Source: an uncultured Alphaproteobacteria bacterium (GTDB lineage Bacteria > Pseudomonadota > Alphaproteobacteria > HIMB59 > GCA-002718135). Taken from it: a stretch of 36,063 nt of DNA. Every line of letters begins with the position of its first letter. Positions within the stretch are counted from its first letter, which is position 1. The position numbers and the translations under genes are program-made. The notes beneath the pieces are model-generated. The model made no database searches and had not been told where the DNA came from. It saw nothing but the letters and a program-made list of their open reading frames with translations. Location of the stretch: NCBI GenBank assembly GCA_902621725.1, contig CACNND010000009.1, positions 1 to 36,063 of the forward strand. Reading direction: 5' to 3'. Below, one piece after another: positions 1-9,004 of the stretch.

Positions 1-1218
1 ATTGCAATCTCTTTTACTGTAATTTCTTCTGTAGCTTCTGCAGAAATAACAATAACTTGGCCGTCTATTTGGGTTGGAAAAGACTCAAAGACTACAGTTA
101 TTGGAGAACTAATAGATGAATTTAATGCAGCAAATGCAGGTTCAATAAAAGTAGTGGTTGAAGAACAAACTGACTATGACATTTATGCTCAAAAACTAAC
201 TGCTCAGATAGCGACAGGTGAATTACCTGACATAATGACAGTTGGTGCTCAGCTTTTGGATGTTTTACATAGAAGTGGGAAAGCAATGGATCTTGCTCCT
301 CATATAAATTCAGATCCACATTGGAATAATGTATATCCAGAAAATGCACTTCAATCTGCTATGACTGATGGAGTTCTTTCAGCATTGCCATACGAACTTT
401 TCGTAACTCCTGTTACTTATAATAAAAAAATATTAAAGGAAGCAGGTTATGATGAGTTTCCTGACAATTATGATGATTTTTTCAAAATGTGTGAAGCAGT
501 TACTGCTAAAGGTAAAGTTTGTACATCTCAAATGACTGGTAAAAATGGTTGGACATCAATGTTATGGTATTCTCAAGCATTAGCTTCTGCCGGTGGACCT
601 GATATTTATGAGAAAGGTCTCGATCACCCAGCCTATGTCAAAGCTTTTGAAGTCATGGAAAAAATGTATCAATACACAACTAGTGATGCCATTGGTGCAG
701 ATGCAGGTGTTTCAGGAGGTCATTTCCTAAATGAAAGAACTGCAGTATTTATGAATGGTCCTTGGTTTATTGCACGATACACTTCTGACGGTATACCTGG
801 TCTACATGAAAATATAGGTGTCGCTGCTGCTCCCATGTTAATGGGTGGTGAAGGTTCACCTGGAGGTTATGTAGGTGGTAGACAATCATCATTAGCTGCA
901 GGCAAACAATCTGATCCTGCTAAAGAAGAAGCAATAGTTAAGTTTTTAAAGTGGTTAACTGTTCCTGAAAATGTTGCAAGGTTATCTTATAGTTCAGGCG
1001 CGATGTTCATTGTTAATGCTGATCTACCTAATGATATGGATAGACTGTTCATAGAAATGAAACAGGGAATAAGTGACGCTCCTTATGTTGCTCCTATCTT
1101 TCAAAATGGAATTGGCTCTTTAGCGGTAGCTAGTGAATTTCCACAAGCATTGTCTGCTTTAGCTTTAGGTGATGTAACACCTGAAGGTGCAGTAGAAATG
1201 TTAAAAGACGCTGAATAA
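1..1218 (+). CDS. ABC transporter sugar-binding protein, 5' end missing
   Basis: Periplasmic solute-binding protein of the SBP_bac_1 type, which would capture a sugar and deliver it to the two permeases encoded downstream. The frame is open from the first base of the window, so the gene starts to the left; 405 residues are visible. The first 14 codons read as the end of a signal peptide (ISFTVISSVASA), with likely cleavage before EITITWPSIWVG at base 43. Family features are the early segment LIDEFNAANAGSIKVVVEE, the aromatic- and Gly-rich middle (FMNGPWFIARY) and the late FLKWLTVPENVARL. The organisation SBP-permease-permease is that of the carbohydrate CUT1 family. The substrate cannot be read from sequence; the sulfatase and glycosidase genes downstream suggest an oligosaccharide. 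The family call is firm and the substrate is inference. Confidence 0.9.
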   Translation: MAISFTVISSVASAEITITWPSIWVGKDSKTTVIGELIDEFNAANAGSIKVVVEEQTDYDIYAQKLTAQIATGELPDIMTVGAQLLDVLHRSGKAMDLAPHINSDPHWNNVYPENALQSAMTDGVLSALPYELFVTPVTYNKKILKEAGYDEFPDNYDDFFKMCEAVTAKGKVCTSQMTGKNGWTSMLWYSQALASAGGPDIYEKGLDHPAYVKAFEVMEKMYQYTTSDAIGADAGVSGGHFLNERTAVFMNGPWFIARYTSDGIPGLHENIGVAAAPMLMGGEGSPGGYVGGRQSSLAAGKQSDPAKEEAIVKFLKWLTVPENVARLSYSSGAMFIVNADLPNDMDRLFIEMKQGISDAPYVAPIFQNGIGSLAVASEFPQALSALALGDVTPEGAVEMLKDAE

Positions 1219-1227
1219 TAACTTAAT

Positions 1228-1257
1228 AACTATGAGGTATTTTTATACCTCATAGTT
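1228..1257 (+). terminator. Perfect hairpin after the sugar-binding protein gene
   Basis: A 13-bp perfect stem (1228-1240 AACTATGAGGTAT, pairing with 1245-1257) closes a TTTT loop, 9 bases after the stop codon of the binding protein and 9 before the first permease ATG. Only three T follow the stem, so it is not a classic intrinsic terminator. By analogy with other binding-protein operons, it may protect the 3' end of the binding-protein mRNA or attenuate read-through, giving more binding protein than permease. Confidence 0.7.
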
Positions 1258-1266
1258 TACTTACCT

Positions 1267-2139
1267 ATGAAAATAAAAAAAGATGAGGTCGGCTGGTTAT
1301 TATTATTTATTGCACCTACCTTAATTCTTTTCACACTTTTTTTTATTTTACCAATTTTATTTCTTTTAGCGAGTAGCTTTACAAATTGGGATGGTATTAG
1401 TGCAGAATTTGTTGGATTTGAAAACTACGTTAAATTGTTTAATAAAAAAAGCTTTGTACGGGCAATAACAAATAACCTATATTGGTGCATCACTGCAGCA
1501 CTTATTACCGTTCCGTTAGGTCTTATTATAGCATTACTCTTATCTCATCGATCAAGGGGATGGAAAGTTTTTAGAACAGTCCTATTTGTGCCACAAGTTG
1601 TATCATCAGCAGCCATAGCGATGCTTTGGGCAGCTGTTTTTAATGCTGAATATGGACTATTAAATTTTATTTTGGATAACATAGGTTTATCTGATTATAA
1701 AAACCATAATTGGTTAGGAAATGTAAGAACTGCAAATGCTGCATTAATTGGGTTTTCTTTGTGCTACGTTGGTTATTTTATGGTTATCATGTTAGCAAAA
1801 ACAGCAAGCATATCAGAAGATTATTACGACGCCGCAAAGATAGATGGAGCAAGTCAAATTCAAAAAGATTTTTATATTACAGCCCCTTTAATTAAGAGCA
1901 CATTTTTTCTTTGCATCATTTTAGCTGTAATCTTTAATTTAAGACAATTTGAATATGTTTATCTTATGACTGCTGGCGGTCCAGCAAATAAAACTCAAGT
2001 ACTTGTAGTTTATATTTGGAATGAATTAACTGTTCAAAGACTTGGAAGAGGAAGTGCCGCAGGAGTTATAATGATTGCATTGGGAGCTATGTTACTTCTT
2101 TTACTTCGTAGAATATTAAAAAGTGAGACTTATAACTAA
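1267..2139 (+). CDS. Sugar ABC transporter permease, MalF/UgpA type
   Basis: Inner-membrane permease subunit of 290 residues, the usual size for CUT1 permeases without the large MalF periplasmic insert. A hydrophobic helix lies at about residues 9-34, with further helices near 70-92, 103-126, 158-178, 210-226 and 262-282. The cytoplasmic EAA loop that contacts the ATPase is clear at about 184-210 (EDYYDAAKIDGASQIQKDFY). It is followed by the C-terminal LMTAGGPANKTQVLVVYIW, typical of this subunit. The ATG at 1267 has no convincing Shine-Dalgarno sequence. The gene lies 48 bases after the binding-protein gene, with a hairpin between them. No ATP-binding subunit occurs in the visible part of this operon, so the ATPase must be encoded upstream or elsewhere. 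Confidence 0.92.
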   Translation: MKIKKDEVGWLLLFIAPTLILFTLFFILPILFLLASSFTNWDGISAEFVGFENYVKLFNKKSFVRAITNNLYWCITAALITVPLGLIIALLLSHRSRGWKVFRTVLFVPQVVSSAAIAMLWAAVFNAEYGLLNFILDNIGLSDYKNHNWLGNVRTANAALIGFSLCYVGYFMVIMLAKTASISEDYYDAAKIDGASQIQKDFYITAPLIKSTFFLCIILAVIFNLRQFEYVYLMTAGGPANKTQVLVVYIWNELTVQRLGRGSAAGVIMIALGAMLLLLLRRILKSETYN

Positions 2140-2140
2140 T

Positions 2141-2977
2141 ATGACTAAGGATTATTCTTTAAATTTTTATTCTATTTTTAAGTGGGTAATAATAATTTCT
2201 TTTGTTGTATATGCAGTATTCCCATTTCTTTGGTTAGTGCTTGCTTCTTTAAAAACAAATGCAGAGTTACTTGATAATCCATTTAAGTTACCAAAAGTTT
2301 TCCAATTTCAAAACTATTCAAATGCAATTCAAGAAGCAGGTTTAATTCAACTAATAATTAATTCTTTAGTGATTAGCACCTGCGCTACTTTTTTAAATAT
2401 CCTTTTTGCTTCCATGTGTGCTTTTGCTATAGCCAGACATATTTTTTGGTGGAAAAATGTATTATTTTTAATGATAACAGCAGGTATTTTAGTTCCTTTA
2501 AATGCATTAATTATCCCATACTACGCAATTATCAATTTTTTAAATCTTTATGACACAAGGATTGGTCTAATCTTAGTTTACTGTGCAGTTGGATTACCAG
2601 TATCTACATTTATCTTAACAGAATTTTTTAAAGGAATTCCAAAAGAAATAGAAGAAGCATCATATTTAGATGGTTGTAATTTTGTAGCTCGCTATTTTAG
2701 AATTATGTTGCCATTAGCTCTTCCTGGTTTAGCCACTGCAGGAACGTTTCAGTTCATTTTATGTTGGAATGAATTTATCTACGCAATGCTTTTAACTTCT
2801 TCAACTGAAATAAGAACAATCCAGTTTGGTATAAGTTATTTTACAAATGAATTTTTCTCTGATTACGTTGGAATGTTTGCAGCAGTAGTAGTTAGTATTT
2901 TGCCAAGCATTACGGTGTTTATACTTTTCCAAGAGAGAGTGATAACTGGCTTAACAGCTGGGTCAGTTAAGGGATAG
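2141..2977 (+). CDS. Sugar ABC transporter permease, MalG/UgpE type
   Basis: Second inner-membrane permease of the carbohydrate transporter, 278 residues from ATG 2141. I chose that ATG because it sits one base after the preceding stop and gives a normal N-terminus (MTKDYSLNFYSIFKW, helix at about 14-36). A GTG at 2123, inside the upstream gene, would add six residues. The EAA loop is at about 169-195 (EIEEASYLDGCNFVARYFRI). The conserved FxxCWNEFxYA segment of MalG-type subunits follows (FILCWNEFIYAMLL). The C-terminal VITGLTAGSVKG is the standard ending of this family. It would pair with the 1267 permease to form the translocation pore. The sulfatase gene starts 7 bases later, which suggests one transcript. 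Confidence 0.92.
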   Translation: MTKDYSLNFYSIFKWVIIISFVVYAVFPFLWLVLASLKTNAELLDNPFKLPKVFQFQNYSNAIQEAGLIQLIINSLVISTCATFLNILFASMCAFAIARHIFWWKNVLFLMITAGILVPLNALIIPYYAIINFLNLYDTRIGLILVYCAVGLPVSTFILTEFFKGIPKEIEEASYLDGCNFVARYFRIMLPLALPGLATAGTFQFILCWNEFIYAMLLTSSTEIRTIQFGISYFTNEFFSDYVGMFAAVVVSILPSITVFILFQERVITGLTAGSVKG

Positions 2978-2984
2978 ATACTTT

Positions 2985-4259
2985 TTGAAACATCCAAATA
3001 TTATAAAGATTGTTTGCCACGATATAGGAAGACACTTGGGTTGCTATGGAGTAAAATCTGTCAATTCAAATGCTATAGATTCACTAGCAAAAAATGGTAT
3101 CTTATTTAAAAACTCATTTGCAACAAGCCCTGGATGTAGTCCAAGTAGAGCTGCGATAGCTACTGGGATGTATCCTCACAATACAGGTGTATTGGGGTTA
3201 GCACATGCACATTTTGGTTGGAGTCTCGATAAAAAAATTAATCACATCGCAAAATATTTTTCAAAAAATGGTTATACCTCAATTCTTTTTGGATTACAGC
3301 ATGTCACCTATCATGAAAAAACACTTGGTTTTAATAAAATTTTTCCAGAGAGGCCAGCTAATGAAGTGCTAAAAAATATTACAAAGAATATTGATAATAA
3401 AATTTTCAAAAAACCTTTTTATGCTGAAGTTAATTTCTTTGAACCTCATCGTCCTTTTGATTATGGGGGTGTTAAGCCAGATAAATCTAAAGGTGTGTAT
3501 ATTCCTAAATTTATACCAAAAAATATTTATAGCCAAAGAGAATTTGCAGAAATGCAAGGAGCAATTAAAAAAATGGATGATACAGTTTTTGAAATAATAA
3601 ACCTTCTAAAGAAAAAAAACCTTTATGAAAATACAATTATAGTTTTTACAACAGATCACGGGATCCCATTTCCCAGAGCAAAAGGCACTCTATATGACTC
3701 TGGCATTGAAACTTGTCTTATAATTTCTTATCCAAAATTAAATATAAAAAATAAAAAATTTAGCGAATTAATTACTAATATAGATATCTTACCAACTCTT
3801 TTAGATTTTGCAAAAATTAAAATACCAAAAGAAATACAAGGTAAAAGTTTTTATCCACTAATATTAAATAAAAAATATTTTGAGAATAATGAAATTTTTG
3901 CAGAAAAAACTTATCATGATCTATTTGATCCAATGCGGTGTGTTCGAAATAAAAATTTTAAATTAATTATAAATTTTGATTCTGATAAAATTATAAGAGT
4001 ACCAGGAGATATTATGATGGGAGACACATATAAAACTATGCTGGGGCAAATTATTAATATTCGAGAACGCTATGAATTATATGATATAAATAGAGATAAA
4101 TTTGAAAGAAAAAATTTAGCTAATAGCAAAAAATATAAAAGTATTAAGCGCGAACTATTGAGAAAAATTGTAAGATGGATGAAAAAAACTAAAGATCCTT
4201 TATTGAAAAAGCAAATACTATCACCTTTTTTTCTTGATACACTAAAGCAACTAAAATAG
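2985..4259 (+). CDS. Type I Cys sulfatase, heparan N-sulfatase-like, cytoplasmic
   Basis: A 424-residue arylsulfatase-fold hydrolase predicted to remove sulfate from a sulfated sugar. The C-x-P-S-R motif that is oxidised to formylglycine is at residues 51-55 (GCSPSRAAIATG). Other likely metal or active-site segments are CHDIGRHLGCYG (11-22), EPHRP (153-157) and TTDHGIPFPRAKG (222-234). The first motif has HD where many sulfatases have DD. I recall that variant from the heparan-N-sulfatase-like branch, so an N- or O-sulfated aminosugar is a possible substrate (inference). The start is TTG 2985, 7 bases after the permease stop; no in-frame ATG precedes the conserved core. There is no signal peptide, so the enzyme should act in the cytoplasm on imported material. 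An FGE-like gene follows 11 bases downstream. Confidence 0.9.
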   Translation: MKHPNIIKIVCHDIGRHLGCYGVKSVNSNAIDSLAKNGILFKNSFATSPGCSPSRAAIATGMYPHNTGVLGLAHAHFGWSLDKKINHIAKYFSKNGYTSILFGLQHVTYHEKTLGFNKIFPERPANEVLKNITKNIDNKIFKKPFYAEVNFFEPHRPFDYGGVKPDKSKGVYIPKFIPKNIYSQREFAEMQGAIKKMDDTVFEIINLLKKKNLYENTIIVFTTDHGIPFPRAKGTLYDSGIETCLIISYPKLNIKNKKFSELITNIDILPTLLDFAKIKIPKEIQGKSFYPLILNKKYFENNEIFAEKTYHDLFDPMRCVRNKNFKLIINFDSDKIIRVPGDIMMGDTYKTMLGQIINIRERYELYDINRDKFERKNLANSKKYKSIKRELLRKIVRWMKKTKDPLLKKQILSPFFLDTLKQLK

Positions 4260-4270
4260 TCTTTTAAAAT

Positions 4271-4963
4271 ATGAAATCATTTGAAAATAAAAAAATATTT
4301 ATAGCATCAAATGAATATACTTATAGAGTTGAACATTTAACACTTGAGGGTACATGTTCAATTGATCATGGCCCAAGAAATGTTAAAATTAAAAATTTGT
4401 TAGTTGATAAGTATCCAGTCACTAATCAACAATATTCCTTTTTTTTAAAAAAAACGGGTTATCAGCCAAGAGATACACAACGATTTTTAGAACACAAACC
4501 AAATAAAAAAATATTCAATCTTCCTGTTGTGTTTGTTTCTCAAAATGATGCAATTGCATATGCTAAATGGGTTGGTGGCCGACTTCCAACTGATGAAGAA
4601 TGGCAATATATTGCAGCTGGTCCAAAATATCTAGACTGGCCATGGGGTAACAAGTTTAATCCTTCATTATGTAATCATGATGGCAATAAACTTGAGTCTG
4701 TTAATGCATATAGAAAAGGAGAAAGTTGGTGTGGCTGTGTAGATATGAGTGGAAATTGTTGGGAGTGGACTGCCGGTATTCATGATGATGGCAATCACCA
4801 ATTTGCATTATTGAGAGGAGGAAGTTATTTCTATGCACATGATCATTGGCATGTTGGAGGAGGTGCGAGAAAAAATAGCTATCATTGGAAATTACAAATA
4901 TTAAATGAAGGAATGAACCGGGCTGCTACCCTTGGTTTTCGATGTGTTTATGATGCAAAATAA
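4271..4963 (+). CDS. Formylglycine-generating-enzyme-like protein without the usual Cys pair
   Basis: A 230-residue protein of the FGE-sulfatase (SUMF1/EgtB/PvdO) fold. Hallmarks are VDKYPVTNQQYSFFL (45-59), GGRLPTDEEWQYIA (102-115), DMSGNCWEW (158-166), LRGGSYF (181-187) and the ending LGFRC (221-225). Position next to a Cys sulfatase suggests a maturation factor. In aerobic FGE, however, the two copper-binding catalytic cysteines lie just after GGSY; aligned by eye, these are Tyr188 and Trp193 here. Cysteines are instead seen at 29, 134, 154, 156, 163 and 225. The protein may therefore be a paralogue with a different job, or use other ligands. There is no signal peptide. The fold call is firm and FGE activity is doubtful. 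Confidence 0.85.
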   Translation: MKSFENKKIFIASNEYTYRVEHLTLEGTCSIDHGPRNVKIKNLLVDKYPVTNQQYSFFLKKTGYQPRDTQRFLEHKPNKKIFNLPVVFVSQNDAIAYAKWVGGRLPTDEEWQYIAAGPKYLDWPWGNKFNPSLCNHDGNKLESVNAYRKGESWCGCVDMSGNCWEWTAGIHDDGNHQFALLRGGSYFYAHDHWHVGGGARKNSYHWKLQILNEGMNRAATLGFRCVYDAK

Positions 4964-6761
4964 ATTTACAGGTAAAAAAAAGTTTATAGATTTTTCATTA
5001 GGTAGTTTGAACTTATCTCTAGATGTAGATAAAAACATTTTTTTAAAAAAATTAAATTTTATAAAAAATATTAATAACGAACTATTTAGTATTCGAGTTG
5101 AAAATAAATTAATTCCGAGAAATAAGTATAAAATAGAAAAAGTCTTTAAAAAAACTGATGTTAACTTCGCTGTAATTTCAATAGATTTTTCACAAAATTT
5201 TGAAAATGATTTCTTTAAAGGAAGAATATCTTTGATTCAGAAGAAAAAAAATATTACTGATTTTATTTTTCAGCTATCTGCTAGATGGCATAAAAATATT
5301 CCGAAGAAAGTGCTCTTAAAATTTCCATTTTTAATTAACCTTCATAAAAATAAAAATTTCTTAAAGCCAGGCGATATCTTTGATGGAAAAAAAAGAATAA
5401 ATAAAGGAGTTTGGAATTTACACGAATATCCACCTTCAATAATATCTGATAATTTAGGAAATCAATGTTTAGGTTTTGAATTTTACGATCAATTCCCTTG
5501 GCAGGCAAACTATAATCTTGGGATTAGTGAAGCTATATCAAATGAAAATTTTGAAAAGCTTGAAACTGAAATTCAATTAACACGTGAATTAACAGATATC
5601 ATTTTAATGAAAATTTACACAAGCTCTCAAGGAAGAGAAAAAATTTTCGGTCTTTGGAAAGAAAATACCAGAGAAAGATATGATCTAAGAAAATACCATG
5701 ATAGTAAAAATAGATGGATAAAAAAAAATTATCTACAACACTTTATGTTTGCTTATGGAGAAGAGGCTTTTGATTATAAAAAAATGGAATTTAAAATTAT
5801 TCAAATCATTAAAGAAGGGAAAGAATTTGGTGGTTATGATTCAATTTTATTTTGGCATCAGTATCCAAGATTGGGTTTAGATGAAAGTAATCAATGGCAA
5901 TTATATAAATATTTACCAAAAAATTATAAAACTATAAAAAAAATTGTTGATATTTGTCATTCGCATAATACTAAATTTTTTATTCCTTTTAAACCATGGG
6001 ATATTAGGTCTAATGAAAGCTTAGATAGTCACGCCAAATATTTAGAAAGATTTATTAAAGCAACAAGTATCGATGGTTTTTTTCTTGATACAATGTCTTC
6101 TTTACCTGATTCATTTTTAAAAATTCAAAAAAAATTTCCCTCGTTTGAATTTTGTTCAGAAGGCACACCTAGAGAACAAAGGCAAATTGAAACTTTAACA
6201 AGTTCATGGGATCAAATTGGTGATATTAGAAGGAATTTTAAAGTGGAGATAAATTCAAATTTTTTTCGTTTTCTTTTTCCAGAACATCCGCTTAATCTTG
6301 TTTCTCGATGGAGTGTTGGATCTGACAAGGATTCGTTAATTAAAAGAGCGGCTTTTAATGGAATGGGAATGGTTATTTGGCAAGATATTTTTGGTTGTTG
6401 GCTTCCATTTAGTATTGAGCAAAAAAAGAATATAAAATCACTTAAATCTATTCTTAAAAAATATCACAAATATTTTTATGGAGATAATTCAATTCCATTA
6501 ATAAATACTTTATCAAAAAAAATTATTTGTAATGAATTCTCAAATTCGCATGGAAAACAAAAAATTTATTCCATTTATAATTTTGGGTCAAATAAAATTA
6601 AAGGAAGAATTTTAAAACTTCCTTTAGAAGTAAAAGAATTTAAGCAAATTTATGGAAAAAAAGCAAATATCCAAATTCAAAAAAAACAAAATATTTTTTA
6701 TTTGTCAGCAAATCTTAATGTAGATGATGTAATTCTAGTAAATATCAAATTTAAAATTTGA
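4950..6761 (+). CDS. Putative TIM-barrel glycoside hydrolase, family not recognised
   Basis: A 603-residue cytoplasmic protein with no signal peptide. The first 230 or so residues look like a beta-rich domain. The middle looks like an alpha/beta barrel of clan-D/GH13-like style: FGGYDSILFWHQYPR, then KFFIPFKPWDI, then DGFFLDTMSS, then FEFCSEGTP. By position in such barrels, Asp380 and Glu404 are candidate nucleophile and acid/base. The C-terminus (from about 520) is again beta-rich, as in many glycosidases. I could not assign a CAZy family. The start is one of two adjacent ATGs (4950 or 4953) inside the end of the FGE-like gene; a TTG at 4932 is also possible. The overlap and order sulfatase/FGE-like/this gene imply shared function on a sulfated glycan. 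Function is inference from fold and context. Confidence 0.7.
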   Translation: MMQNKFTGKKKFIDFSLGSLNLSLDVDKNIFLKKLNFIKNINNELFSIRVENKLIPRNKYKIEKVFKKTDVNFAVISIDFSQNFENDFFKGRISLIQKKKNITDFIFQLSARWHKNIPKKVLLKFPFLINLHKNKNFLKPGDIFDGKKRINKGVWNLHEYPPSIISDNLGNQCLGFEFYDQFPWQANYNLGISEAISNENFEKLETEIQLTRELTDIILMKIYTSSQGREKIFGLWKENTRERYDLRKYHDSKNRWIKKNYLQHFMFAYGEEAFDYKKMEFKIIQIIKEGKEFGGYDSILFWHQYPRLGLDESNQWQLYKYLPKNYKTIKKIVDICHSHNTKFFIPFKPWDIRSNESLDSHAKYLERFIKATSIDGFFLDTMSSLPDSFLKIQKKFPSFEFCSEGTPREQRQIETLTSSWDQIGDIRRNFKVEINSNFFRFLFPEHPLNLVSRWSVGSDKDSLIKRAAFNGMGMVIWQDIFGCWLPFSIEQKKNIKSLKSILKKYHKYFYGDNSIPLINTLSKKIICNEFSNSHGKQKIYSIYNFGSNKIKGRILKLPLEVKEFKQIYGKKANIQIQKKQNIFYLSANLNVDDVILVNIKFKI

Positions 6762-6767
6762 TAAATA

Positions 6768-7952
6768 TTAACTAACTGCTTTTATAATGCCTCTCAATTC
6801 CGATAACCCCATCATTCTTCCTATCGCGGTATAACCAGGATTAATGGATTTTTTAAATTGATCATCTAGTAAACAATGTCCATGGTCTGGTCTCATTGGA
6901 ATTTCAACTTTTTTATTTTTACTTCTTCTTTTTTCTTCTTTTAATATAAGTTTTATTAATTTAACAAAATCGACATCTCCACTTAGATGATTTGTTTCAT
7001 AGAAGCTTTTTTTATCTTTTTCAATTTTTACGTTCCTTAGATGAATAAAGTTTATTTTCTTCTTGAAAGTATCAAAAATTTTATAAATATTATTATTAAT
7101 GTTTGATGCTAGAGAACCTGAGCAAAACGCCATACCATTTGATATTGAGTCATATGAATCTAAAATAAACTTATAATCTCTTAAATTTGAGACAATTTTA
7201 GGTATTCCAAAAAGTGCGACTGGTGGATCATCTGGATGAAGAGTCATATTTACATTACATTCTTCAGCAACAGGCATGATTTCTCTAACAAAATCAATTA
7301 AATTTTCCTGTAATTCTTTTTTTTGATAATTTCTATAAGCGTAAATCATCTTTTTAAATTCATTTATAGAATATTTTTTTTCAGATGCTGGTAATCCACC
7401 CATTACTGCAATCTTCAAATTTTCAATATCTTTTTTATTCATCTTCTTAAAAGTTTTTTCTGCATTTCTAATTTGTTTAGACGAATATCTAGAATCAACA
7501 TCATTTAATTTTAAAATAAAAGTTTCAAATATAATTATGTGTTGATAATTAAATTTTAAAGCCAAACCCTCTGTTGGTAGTTGAAAATCTAATTGAGTTC
7601 TTGTCCAATCTACTATTGGCATAAAATTATAACAAATTGTTTGAATATTATTTTTAGAAACATTTGATATTGAATCTTTGTAATTATTGATGAACTTTCT
7701 AAAATTTTTATGTCTTAATTTAATATCGTTATGAACTGGAATACTTTCAACTACATTCCATTTTAAATTAACATTATTTGAATTATTGTGTTTGTTTATA
7801 AAATCAACTCTCTTTTTTACATCATTTTTAGTCCATTTTTCACCATACGGTATTTGATGTAATGAAGTTACTATGTACTCAGCATTTGATTGTCTTATAT
7901 CTGATAAACTAACTGGATCACTAGGCCCATACCATCTAAAAGAATTTTGCAT
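6768..7952 (-). CDS. uxuA: Mannonate dehydratase
   Basis: Dehydrates D-mannonate to 2-keto-3-deoxygluconate in the hexuronate pathway, acting in the cytoplasm. From the chosen ATG (7950-7952) the protein has 394 residues, the same length as E. coli UxuA, and begins MQNSFRWYGPSDPVSLSDI, matching the conserved UxuA N-terminus. A TTG at 8000 would add 16 unrelated residues. Conserved family segments seen include TLHPDDPP, the FCSGSL region, FIHLRN and the C-terminal IPMRPDHGH metal-site motif. The gene is convergent with the glycosidase gene (6-base gap) and divergent from the aldo/keto reductase gene, with about 50 bases between starts. Its presence suggests that the imported glycan yields a uronic acid. 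No uxuB or uronate isomerase is in the window. Confidence 0.95.
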   Translation of the reverse strand: MQNSFRWYGPSDPVSLSDIRQSNAEYIVTSLHQIPYGEKWTKNDVKKRVDFINKHNNSNNVNLKWNVVESIPVHNDIKLRHKNFRKFINNYKDSISNVSKNNIQTICYNFMPIVDWTRTQLDFQLPTEGLALKFNYQHIIIFETFILKLNDVDSRYSSKQIRNAEKTFKKMNKKDIENLKIAVMGGLPASEKKYSINEFKKMIYAYRNYQKKELQENLIDFVREIMPVAEECNVNMTLHPDDPPVALFGIPKIVSNLRDYKFILDSYDSISNGMAFCSGSLASNINNNIYKIFDTFKKKINFIHLRNVKIEKDKKSFYETNHLSGDVDFVKLIKLILKEEKRRSKNKKVEIPMRPDHGHCLLDDQFKKSINPGYTAIGRMMGLSELRGIIKAVS

Positions 7953-8002
7953 AAGACTTTTATATCTGATAAATTTAGATTTAAAATAACTTCTTTGCAA
8001 CT

Positions 8003-9004
8003 ATGAAAAAAAGAAAATTAGGTAATACAGATATTAAGCTTACAGCAATTGGTTTTGGAGGTGCTCCTATTGGCAATTTGTTTGAGCAACTTAATGAATA
8101 TGATTGCTATGAAATAATAAAAAAATCTTATGAGTCAAAACTTAATTATTTTGATACTGCTCCTCTATATGGTTATGGGTTAAGTGAACATAGAATTGGG
8201 AACTTCCTAAAGACGGTTGATCCAAATAGCTACTATATTTCTACAAAAGTAGGTCGCTACCTTACTCCTGAAAGAAATTATCGAGAACAGCAAGGAAAAT
8301 TTGTAGGAAATTTTAATTTTATACCTAATATTGACTACTCTTATGATGGTGTAATGAGATCTTTTGATCAATCAGTTCATCGTTTAGGAGTCTCAAAAAT
8401 TGACATTTGTTTGATACATGATGTTGATAAAAAAAATTTTGGTAAAGATGTTAGTCACTATTTTAAATTAGCTATGAAAGGCGCATATAAAGCTTTAAAA
8501 AAACTTAAAGAACAAAAATTAATAAAAGCAATTGGAGTAGGATTAAACGATGCAGATATGTGTGCAAAATTTGCCAATGAAGGGGATTTTGATTGTATTT
8601 TGCTTGCAGGAAGATATACACTAATAGATCAAAGTGCACTTGATGAATTTTTTCCTATAGCAAACAAAAATAATATTGGGATAATTCTTGGAGGTGTTTT
8701 TAATTCTGGAATATTAGCAAAAGGTATTGGTGATAATGTAACGTATTCGTATGATAAAATACCACCTGTAATAAAAGCCAAATATAAAAAAATTTATAAA
8801 ACTTGTAAAAACTATGATGTACCTGTACCTGCTGCGGCTCTGCAATTTTCCTATTCTAATAAAATAATTTCATCTATGATATTGGGTATAGATAGAGTGG
8901 AGCAAATAGAGCAAAATTATGAGTATTTAAACTATCCTATTCCAAAGGAATTATGGAGTGATTTAATAAAAGAAAATCTTATTGATGAAAGGTGTTTGTT
9001 TTAA
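8003..9004 (+). CDS. Aldo/keto reductase, aldose/fucose dehydrogenase-like
   Basis: A 333-residue NAD(P)-dependent oxidoreductase of the aldo/keto reductase family. The catalytic tetrad is visible: Asp51 and Tyr56 (FDTAPLYGYG), Lys82 (STKVGR) and His139 (LIHDVD). The segment LAGRYTLIDQSALDEFFP and GIILGGVFNSGILA match the branch that includes D-threo-aldose 1-dehydrogenase and L-fucose dehydrogenase, which oxidise free sugars to lactones. Together with uxuA it fits oxidation of monosaccharides released by the upstream hydrolases (inference). The gene is divergent from uxuA. Its TAA stop is read within TTAA (9001-9004), which also encodes the stop of the convergent ureohydrolase gene. Confidence 0.88.
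   Translation: MKKRKLGNTDIKLTAIGFGGAPIGNLFEQLNEYDCYEIIKKSYESKLNYFDTAPLYGYGLSEHRIGNFLKTVDPNSYYISTKVGRYLTPERNYREQQGKFVGNFNFIPNIDYSYDGVMRSFDQSVHRLGVSKIDICLIHDVDKKNFGKDVSHYFKLAMKGAYKALKKLKEQKLIKAIGVGLNDADMCAKFANEGDFDCILLAGRYTLIDQSALDEFFPIANKNNIGIILGGVFNSGILAKGIGDNVTYSYDKIPPVIKAKYKKIYKTCKNYDVPVPAAALQFSYSNKIISSMILGIDRVEQIEQNYEYLNYPIPKELWSDLIKENLIDERCLF

Follow-up and report, generated by a model that had tools for sequence, protein, structure and literature searches.

The left end of the window, the 36,063-nucleotide stretch of DNA analysed here, encodes a glycoside-hydrolase-like protein (GHx) and, beside it, a protein with the fold of the formylglycine-generating enzyme (FGE) that lacks the catalytic cysteines of that enzyme. 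The FGE-fold protein is very probably the partner of GHx and not a sulfatase maturase. It is tentatively proposed that the two form a new and widespread two-part glycoside hydrolase family, in which a sulfatase-maturase fold is reused as a substrate-binding subunit, and that they open a sulfated or sulfonated glycoside for the sulfoquinovose pathway of these streamlined marine bacteria.

The gene row at the contig edge

At its left end, the window coincides with the edge of its contig, C9. Six genes follow one another on the + strand, succeeded by uxuA on the − strand and an aldo/keto reductase (AKR) gene on the + strand. The first gene encodes the substrate-binding protein (SBP) of a sugar-type ABC transporter (1..1218; PF13416 1.8e-33, PF01547 2e-30). 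Its 5′ end is truncated by the contig edge, and the remainder of a signal peptide is visible in the window; the signal peptide is complete in a full-length relative (L012:5013-6266). The SBP has 39 PDB matches, and no sulfosugar binder is named among them, a point of little weight. Two permeases come next (1267..2139 and 2123..2977; PF00528, BPD_transp_1, 1.2e-13 and 5.8e-15), and no ATPase gene occurs within the importer cassette of the window. These are followed by a Cys-type sulfatase with a TTG start (2985..4259; PF00884 3e-36, 125.7 bits; SGSH_C 3e-21), the FGE-fold protein (4271..4963; PF03781 8.5e-34, 117.8 bits against a cut-off of 23.3) and GHx (4950..6761), a TIM-barrel protein without a named family. 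The intergenic gaps from the SBP to the GHx gene are 48, −17, 7, 11 and −14 bases. Beyond them lie uxuA, encoding mannonate dehydratase (6768..8000, − strand; TIGR00695, 421 bits against a cut-off of 199.55), and the AKR gene (8003..9004, + strand; PF00248, Aldo_ket_red, 1.9e-36), whose top NCBIfam model is YdjG at 89.7 bits against a cut-off of 550. The earlier note had described this row as an importer, a sulfatase, an FGE-like protein and a glycosidase-like protein. The order and the families were borne out and the FGE enzyme was not, while GHx would be a glycosidase by the fold of its model.

A hydrophobicity scan detected no signal peptide in the sulfatase, the FGE-like protein, GHx, AKR or UxuA, in agreement with the claim that the degradative proteins lack one. 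Missed upstream starts uncovered none either in the four + strand open reading frames (ORFs), where the upstream room is just 10, 1, 11 and 6 codons. The upstream extension of the GHx ORF is hydrophobic. The first ATG, GTG or TTG start in it is the TTG at 4932, and in the protein read from there all 11-residue stretches have a hydrophobicity of at most 1.14, with no signal peptide seen. The missing signal peptides fit cytoplasmic cleavage after import. The suggestion of a small import-then-cleave gene set in a streamlined alphaproteobacterium has thus held, with the gene order shared by relatives and signal peptides absent; it may serve the selfish uptake of oligosaccharides that the earlier note proposed.

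The Cys motif of the sulfatase is C-S-P-S-R, conforming to the C-x-P-S-R of Cys-type S1 sulfatases, and its top PDB sequences are the S1_8A sulfatase 9bb9 (146 bits) and the N-sulphoglucosamine sulphohydrolase 4mhx (125 bits). When the gene order was searched in related genomes it proved to be conserved: among the 15 loci of the window's type (L011–L025), the sulfatase lies between the permease and the FGE-like gene in 12. The three exceptions are L015, which has no sulfatase, L011, where an inverted fragment sits at the end of a contig, and L024, which begins inside the GHx gene. The record titles name Alphaproteobacteria for 14 of the 15; the Euryarchaeota MAG title of L020 is probably due to mis-binning. 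In the other 58 GHx loci, a BLASTP search with the window's sulfatase over flanks of unequal length, which misses distant sulfatases, returned a sulfatase-like ORF in two (L047 and L054). The sulfatase is an optional member of the cassette, being absent from both L015 and L010.

The probable sulfosugar core and its variable slot

The locus continues on a second contig of the same genome, C22, and is contiguous in related single-cell genomes. The core located there consists of genes for an aldose epimerase, both subunits of sulfopyruvate decarboxylase, a PfkB kinase, a 2-hydroxyacid dehydrogenase, a GH188 sulfoquinovosidase and an SftI/SqvD-like isomerase. Its order is identical in all six stretches read, which were chosen solely from genomes with an SftI-like match. 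Judged from its sequences, this core is very probably devoted to sulfoquinovose catabolism.

The GH188 enzyme, a MocA-type protein, has the PDB entries 8qc3 (357 bits), 8qc2 (353 bits) and 8zn9 (342 bits) as its top matches, the next scoring 124. 8QC2 and 8QC3 are SqgA, a GH188 NAD+-dependent sulfoquinovosidase (PMC10755693); the core protein is like SqgA in retaining the sulfonate-binding Arg and Lys, and its gene sits outside the window, on C22. Both residues occur in all 12 copies that were compared, that of the window's own genome included (11 compared by pattern and L099 by alignment). The core kinase has sulfofructose kinase 7ag6 as its best PDB match by sequence (153 bits versus 96 for the next) and is 35% identical to E. 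coli YihV (169 bits).

Both the alpha and the beta subunit of sulfopyruvate decarboxylase exceed the NCBIfam cut-offs in L015. The genus was sampled through 61 genomes out of a larger group; these are 53–92% complete, and absences among them are therefore soft. The alpha subunit is above cut-off in 45 of the 61 and Xsc, which serves taurine use too, in 48, the window's genome being counted in both (Xsc on contig C34). The SftI-like protein scores 277 bits with the SftI model, against a cut-off of 700 and a best score of 324 among the 61 genomes. Distant paralogues and two control genomes are matched by this model as well, and the 38 genomes counted as having an SftI-like match take in some with fragments or with a distant paralogue alone. 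A close YihT/LacD-type aldolase occurs in 6 of the 61, and 9 further genomes have matches that are weaker or partial; in the window's genome no close one was found, the only match spanning 65 residues.

The core shares a sulfofructose-kinase-like PfkB protein, an aldose epimerase and a candidate SftI/SqvD-type isomerase with the sulfo-EMP and sulfo-EMP2 pathways (the E. coli yih genes; SqvD, SqiK and SqiA), and in some genomes a candidate LacD/YihT-type aldolase. It differs from them in mixing enzyme types, with GH188 in place of YihQ. Sulfo-EMP exports DHPS or sulfolactate, whereas sulfopyruvate decarboxylase and Xsc would here point to the release of sulfite. The string "sulfo" was not found in the main text of the HIMB59/AEGEAN-169 papers examined, and a literature search found no paper naming both sulfoquinovose and HIMB59.

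Of several exchangeable import-and-cleave cassettes found in the variable slot beside this core, the window's comprises the importer, the sulfatase, the FGE-like protein and GHx. The window's cassette is divergent from the core. In 7 of the 10 genomes carrying the FGE-like gene, it shares a contig with the SftI-like gene, at a distance of 3.4 to 5.6 kb. The remaining three are the window's own genome, which is split over two contigs, and G012 and G075, which have no SftI-like match. One alternative cassette combines an importer and an ATPase with a GH31 gene, and in 7 of the 8 genomes with this GH31 gene it shares a contig with the SftI-like gene; another combines an importer with MocA-type oxidoreductases (L099, L101–L103). 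A classic sulfoquinovosidase in the GH31 position would tie the slot to the core, but this enzyme is closer to alpha-glucosidases: its top NCBIfam model is the alpha-glucosidase MalA (260 bits), and it scores 79 bits with sulfoquinovosidase 5aed versus 175 for its top PDB hit. GHx and GH31 are found in 10 and 8 of the 61 genomes, respectively, with none shared. As about 1.3 shared genomes would be expected by chance, this non-overlap proves little and was not retained as evidence.

The full explanation proposed, for and against which the balance is about even, sees the window's left end as one half of a sulfosugar locus with an exchangeable cassette. That the cassette feeds the core is plausible, if slightly less assured. 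The importer would take up a small anionic glycoside, from which the sulfatase, where present, would strip an ester sulfate in the cytoplasm. GHx may then hydrolyse the glycosidic linkage through double displacement, using the predicted residues D380 and E404, in a substrate site that the FGE-fold subunit would build or shape without modifying the sulfatase. The core would isomerise, phosphorylate and split the released sulfosugar, and the C3 sulfonate would be converted through sulfopyruvate and sulfoacetaldehyde to sulfite via Xsc.

It is also quite conceivable, albeit doubtful, that the cassette is unrelated to the core and that the slot is a hot spot. The cassette would then import a sulfated or neutral small glycoside, desulfate it and release a common sugar to glycolysis or to the hexuronate pathway of the flank. 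The core is equipped with its own GH188 sulfoquinovosidase, and GHx is therefore not required for that step. Several unrelated cassettes occupy the slot, of the GH31 and MocA types, one of them with an alpha-glucosidase-like enzyme, so that the slot may just gather sugar cassettes; it is flanked, moreover, by the mannonate dehydratase gene and a fructuronate/tagaturonate-reductase-like gene. A connection to the core is nevertheless favoured by the position of the importer, which is on the divergent side of the core in all six stretches and is the first gene there, except in L099, where it stands behind an abhydrolase-like gene. On the opposite side of the core, L084 lacks a sugar-type importer and instead has one of the oligopeptide type together with an EamA transporter, and the core is retained with every kind of cassette.

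A further reading, along the lines of the earlier note, is improbable: a sulfated, uronate-bearing oligosaccharide would be imported whole, the FGE would mature the sulfatase, sulfatase and glycosidase would cut the oligosaccharide, and UxuA and AKR would process the uronate. It draws on the gene order, the Cys sulfatase, the unseen signal peptides and the adjoining uxuA. UxuA and AKR, however, vary independently of the cassette and were rejected as members of it. The uxuA gene is missing beside GHx in L017, is replaced by another sulfatase-family gene in L019–L022, L024 and L025, and accompanies different cassettes in L100 and L102; it is therefore a flank, and a uronate-bearing substrate found no support. 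AKR is absent in L019, L022 and L025. Nor did a sulfated glycan stand as the main theme of a locus that lacks the sulfatase in two cases and whose remainder is a sulfonate-sugar pathway with GH188. The FGE-like protein, finally, is tied to GHx and not to sulfatases.

The FGE-fold protein and GHx

The top PDB match of the FGE-like model (pLDDT 90) is 1y4j, the human FGE paralogue (Foldseek E 3.3e-15, TM 0.75). Aerobic FGE has two catalytic cysteines, arranged as C-x4-C soon after R-G-G. In the window's protein C-x4-C is absent and both cysteine positions are lost. The motif was likewise found in none of 71 FGE-like ORFs of GHx loci (70 with the R/K-G-G anchor), none of the 41 sequences of alignment A2 and none of the best 120 of 659 homologues; as a positive control, the Haloarcula FGE encoded beside a sulfatase has it. 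PF03781 and the FGE fold are common to this protein, FGE and SUMF2, the structurally nearest being the paralogue, but here C-x4-C is missing and a glycosidase-like protein is the partner.

Across many phyla, 69 of 73 loci pair the FGE-like domain with GHx, 40 as an adjacent gene and 29 by fusion. The four unpaired loci are truncated by contig ends (L024, L044 and L066) or have a broken frame (L081). The pair is encoded by two genes in Alphaproteobacteria and Firmicutes, and by a single fused one in Planctomycetes, Chloroflexi and Bacteroidales. Because it is without the catalytic cysteines and paired with GHx, the FGE-like protein is most likely no part of the sulfatase system, and the claim that an FGE matures the sulfatase was dropped. 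That it is the maturase of the genus through a chemistry without the two cysteines is highly unlikely: its gene is directly 3′ of the Cys sulfatase, the only protein that PF03781 finds in the 61 incomplete genomes of the genus is this FGE-like one (in 10 of them), and TIGR03942, the model of the anaerobic maturase, has no match above cut-off there, but the protein rarely accompanies a sulfatase-like ORF, persists where the sulfatase is missing, and has no PF03781 counterpart found in 51 of the 61. Radical-SAM matches below the TIGR03942 cut-off in 22 of the 61 (best 75 bits, in G064) leave room for another maturase. The available part of one source reports sulfatase-GH fusions and FGE-domain gene counts and does not mention the pairing of FGE-like and glycosidase proteins (PMC6388578).

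GHx itself is matched by no Pfam or NCBIfam model at 1e-3 and by no PDB sequence at E 1. Its model (pLDDT 89) matches the folds of GH36, GH97, GH129, GH101, GH31 and GH13, with Foldseek TM-scores of just ~0.4 for the best structural hits. In a structure re-ranking, in which rows at most 1 Z unit apart are tied, many GH13 barrels had Z values similar to or above those of the whole-length matches of GHx. The predicted nucleophile D380, at the end of strand 4, is conserved in 39 of 39 aligned sequences and the predicted acid/base E404, at the end of strand 5, in 38 (residues counted from base 4950). The model gives GHx a GH36/GH129-like fold, and it may share the catalytic Asp/Glu arrangement of the GH36, GH129 and GH101 alpha-glycosidases. 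It differs from them in having an FGE-fold partner and no match at the sequence level, as the Pfam models of these families match none of the 39 members at E 0.1. GHL6 is matched by three (best 0.0077), and the matches of a GHx profile in the PDB were short GH13 ones only, the best at 2.8e-5 across 38 positions. Outside the genus, the pair is often accompanied by ribokinase genes (the top model for all five kinases tested, above cut-off for three) and also by ADP-ribosyl_GH genes, so the GHx family is not specific to sulfosugars.

Implications for the family and the genus

Many homologues of the FGE-like protein bear the annotation "formylglycine-generating enzyme required for sulfatase activity". 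As this lineage is without the FGE cysteines and is paired with a glycosidase-like protein, the annotation is probably wrong in part. Should the pair prove to be an active glycosidase, it would represent a new enzyme family of unusual two-part design. The sulfoquinovose pathway appears to be near-complete in this genus of streamlined open-ocean bacteria, which is likely a further user of an organic sulfur compound that ranks among the most abundant.

Gene order and signal peptides in the sugar cassette

The genome that holds the window comprises 1.38 Mb in 65 contigs and is 81.6% complete, with the window opening contig C9. The first 6.8 kb encode, in order, a sugar-type ABC binding protein (gene truncated at the 5′ end by the edge of the contig), two permeases, a Cys sulfatase (2985–4259, + strand), an FGE-like protein (4271–4963, +) and a glycosidase-like TIM-barrel protein, termed GHx (4950–6761, +). 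Beyond GHx lie uxuA, on the opposite strand, and then an aldo/keto reductase. From the second permease through GHx, the genes are spaced by 7 and 11 bases or else overlap. The importer, sulfatase, FGE-like gene and GHx are referred to here as the cassette.

The degradative proteins had been described as free of signal peptides. In line with this, none was visible in a hydrophobicity scan. The frame upstream of GHx consists of 11 hydrophobic codons, and the earliest usable start, TTG at 4932, yields no stretch scoring above 1.14. The ABC binding protein of a relative (L012) does carry a signal peptide.

The FGE-like protein and its glycosidase-like partner

A pattern scan with the GHx alignment, using one genome per species for 84,980 species, recovered 73 GHx loci. 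Their record titles include Alphaproteobacteria, Firmicutes, Synergistaceae, Chloroflexi, Planctomycetes, Verrucomicrobia, Spirochaetes, Cyclobacteriaceae, KSB1, Gemmatimonadales and Hydrogenedentes, among others. In 29 of these loci GHx and the FGE-like domain form one fused protein, and in 40 they are direct neighbours; the remaining four are truncated by contig ends (L024, L044, L066) or have a broken frame (L081). PF03781 is also present in 6 of the 108 proteins from the GHx search (P0103–P0108, 920–935 aa), the two entries with an organism name being Bacteroidales. Of the 58 loci that are not of the alphaproteobacterial type, just two (L047 and L054) contain a sulfatase-like ORF. By sequence, the FGE-like protein goes together with GHx, and the two form a putative, unclassified paired glycosidase.

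Both the domain and the fold of the FGE-like protein match FGE. The C-x4-C motif, which belongs to the FGE catalytic site, is absent from all 71 FGE-like ORFs of the GHx loci (72 when counted as domain rows), which derive from 69 of the 73 loci and of which 70 retain the R/K-G-G anchor. It is equally absent from the 41 sequences of the FGE-like alignment and from the best 120 of 659 homologues (115 with the anchor). A Haloarcula FGE adjoining a sulfatase, used as positive control, does carry it. In the alignment, the region of the missing motif is marked by Trp (41/41), a neighbouring His or Tyr, Lys (39/41) and an invariant Arg; the conserved residues of the window's protein here are W193/H194/K207/R217. 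As C-x4-C is missing, the protein is predicted from its residues not to be an FGE by its active site.

A role of this protein as maturase of the sulfatase is improbable, given the missing motif, the association with GHx and the persistence of the protein where the sulfatase is missing. The permease-FGE-like-GHx order is kept in the genus loci L015 and L010, but the sulfatase is absent from both. The sulfated-glycan module of the earlier note is a real and conserved gene set that was in part wrongly explained.

C-x-P-x-R occurs in three sulfatases of the window's genome (window 2994–3815, C1:181947–182948 and C22:13246–13842). Across this genome and 60 genus mates, the cysteine-less protein was the sole one matched by PF03781, and all matches to the anaerobic maturase model fell below cut-off. 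At one contig end (L011:3–563) a sulfatase fragment lies in inverted orientation, possibly as an amplification chimera of the single-cell genome.

In GHx loci elsewhere, ribokinase was the best model for all five kinases tested near the pair, exceeding the cut-off in L026, L028 and L064. ADP-ribosyl_GH-type genes occur in Firmicutes (L026, L027, L031, L037, L043, L082), KSB1 (L047) and Cyclobacteriaceae (L076), the assignment being Pfam-confirmed in L026, L047 and L076 and made through clustering in the others. All of these loci save L076 have a ribokinase-like PfkB.

The probable sulfosugar core and its variable slot

In relatives, the region upstream of the binding protein encodes an aldose epimerase, sulfopyruvate decarboxylase alpha and beta, a PfkB kinase and a 2-hydroxyacid dehydrogenase, followed by a MocA-type protein and an SftI-like isomerase, divergent to the importer. 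The core genes of the window's own genome reside on contig C22, beginning with the SftI-like gene, which is truncated by the contig edge. Both decarboxylase subunits exceed NCBIfam cut-offs in L015. The MocA-type protein is a predicted GH188 sulfoquinovosidase, with PDB matches to 8qc3 (357 bits), 8qc2 (353) and 8zn9 (342) before a drop to 124. According to excerpts of PMC10755693, 8QC2/3/5/6/8 are structures of SqgA, in which the sulfonate is bound by Arg166, Lys172 and the amide of Leu170. The sulfonate-binding Arg and Lys are present in all 12 GH188 copies compared (11 through a pattern, L099 through alignment). The nearest relative of the kinase is the E. coli sulfofructose kinase (35% identity to YihV); on the ribokinase model it scores 114 bits, well below the cut-off of 300. 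Xsc, which also serves taurine use, exceeds its cut-off in 48 of 61 genus genomes, the window's own included.

The weaker points of the core are the SftI-like protein (277 bits against a cut-off of 700) and the LacD-type aldolase. The latter has a close relative in 6 of the 61 genomes; in the PDB it scores highest against a DUF2090 protein (254 bits) and reaches 65 bits against the E. coli SFP aldolase. One genome has, directly behind its SftI-like gene, a 39-residue match to the aldolase (G084:C1:142016–142132), which looks like the remnant of a lost aldolase.

Among the 61 genomes, an SftI-like match occurs in 38 (fragments and distant paralogues included), the FGE-like gene in 10 and a GH31 gene in 8. 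The FGE-like gene shares a contig with the SftI-like match in seven of its ten genomes (G020, G026, G030, G034, G064, G074, G083), and the GH31 gene in seven of eight, the exception being G069. In six stretches picked among genomes with an SftI-like match, the core order is identical and the importer lies on the divergent side in each. The slot beside the core holds the GHx cassette in L104, GH31 in L100 and MocA-type oxidoreductases in L099 and L101–L103. Therefore, the window's cassette is one among several in a variable slot. The GH31 gene (L100:13417–15795), which takes this slot likewise in six other genomes, is closer to alpha-glucosidase than to sulfoquinovosidase. The L100 importer has its own ATPase, and in L099 the importer is separated from the SftI-like gene by an abhydrolase-like gene (7437–8333).

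Proposed working of the cassette and published context

The importer would take up a small anionic glycoside, and an ester sulfate on it may be cleaved off by the sulfatase. In the cytoplasm, GHx and its FGE-fold partner would then cut the glycoside, and the core would process the sulfosugar, if this is the released product. The feeding of the core by the cassette is the weakest step, because a predicted sulfoquinovosidase is already part of the core and the pair elsewhere accompanies ribokinases and ADP-ribosyl_GH genes.

Unusual sugar importers have been described in AEGEAN-169, in a report whose consulted portion lacks the terms "sulfo", "sulfatase" and "sulfur" (PMC10308909). The genomospecies GCA002718135-1.A has a high share of alpha-N-acetylgalactosaminidases, in a source whose excerpts contain "sulfur" once and neither "sulfo" nor "sulfatase" (PMC10734472). 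As GH109 and GH188 enzymes both structurally resemble MocA-type oxidoreductases, according to part of PMC10755693, some of the enzymes so counted could be GH188-type proteins. A literature search found no paper joining sulfoquinovose with HIMB59, whereas sulfoquinovose and SAR11 do co-occur; HIMB59, AEGEAN and SAR11 are absent from the main text of a study of aquatic sulfoquinovose degraders (PMC13372026). Sections of two reviews served for comparison (PMC12890257, PMC9594981).

The ordinary part of the locus is the variable sugar cassette. Its points of interest are the putative, unclassified paired glycosidase and the neighbouring sulfosugar core.
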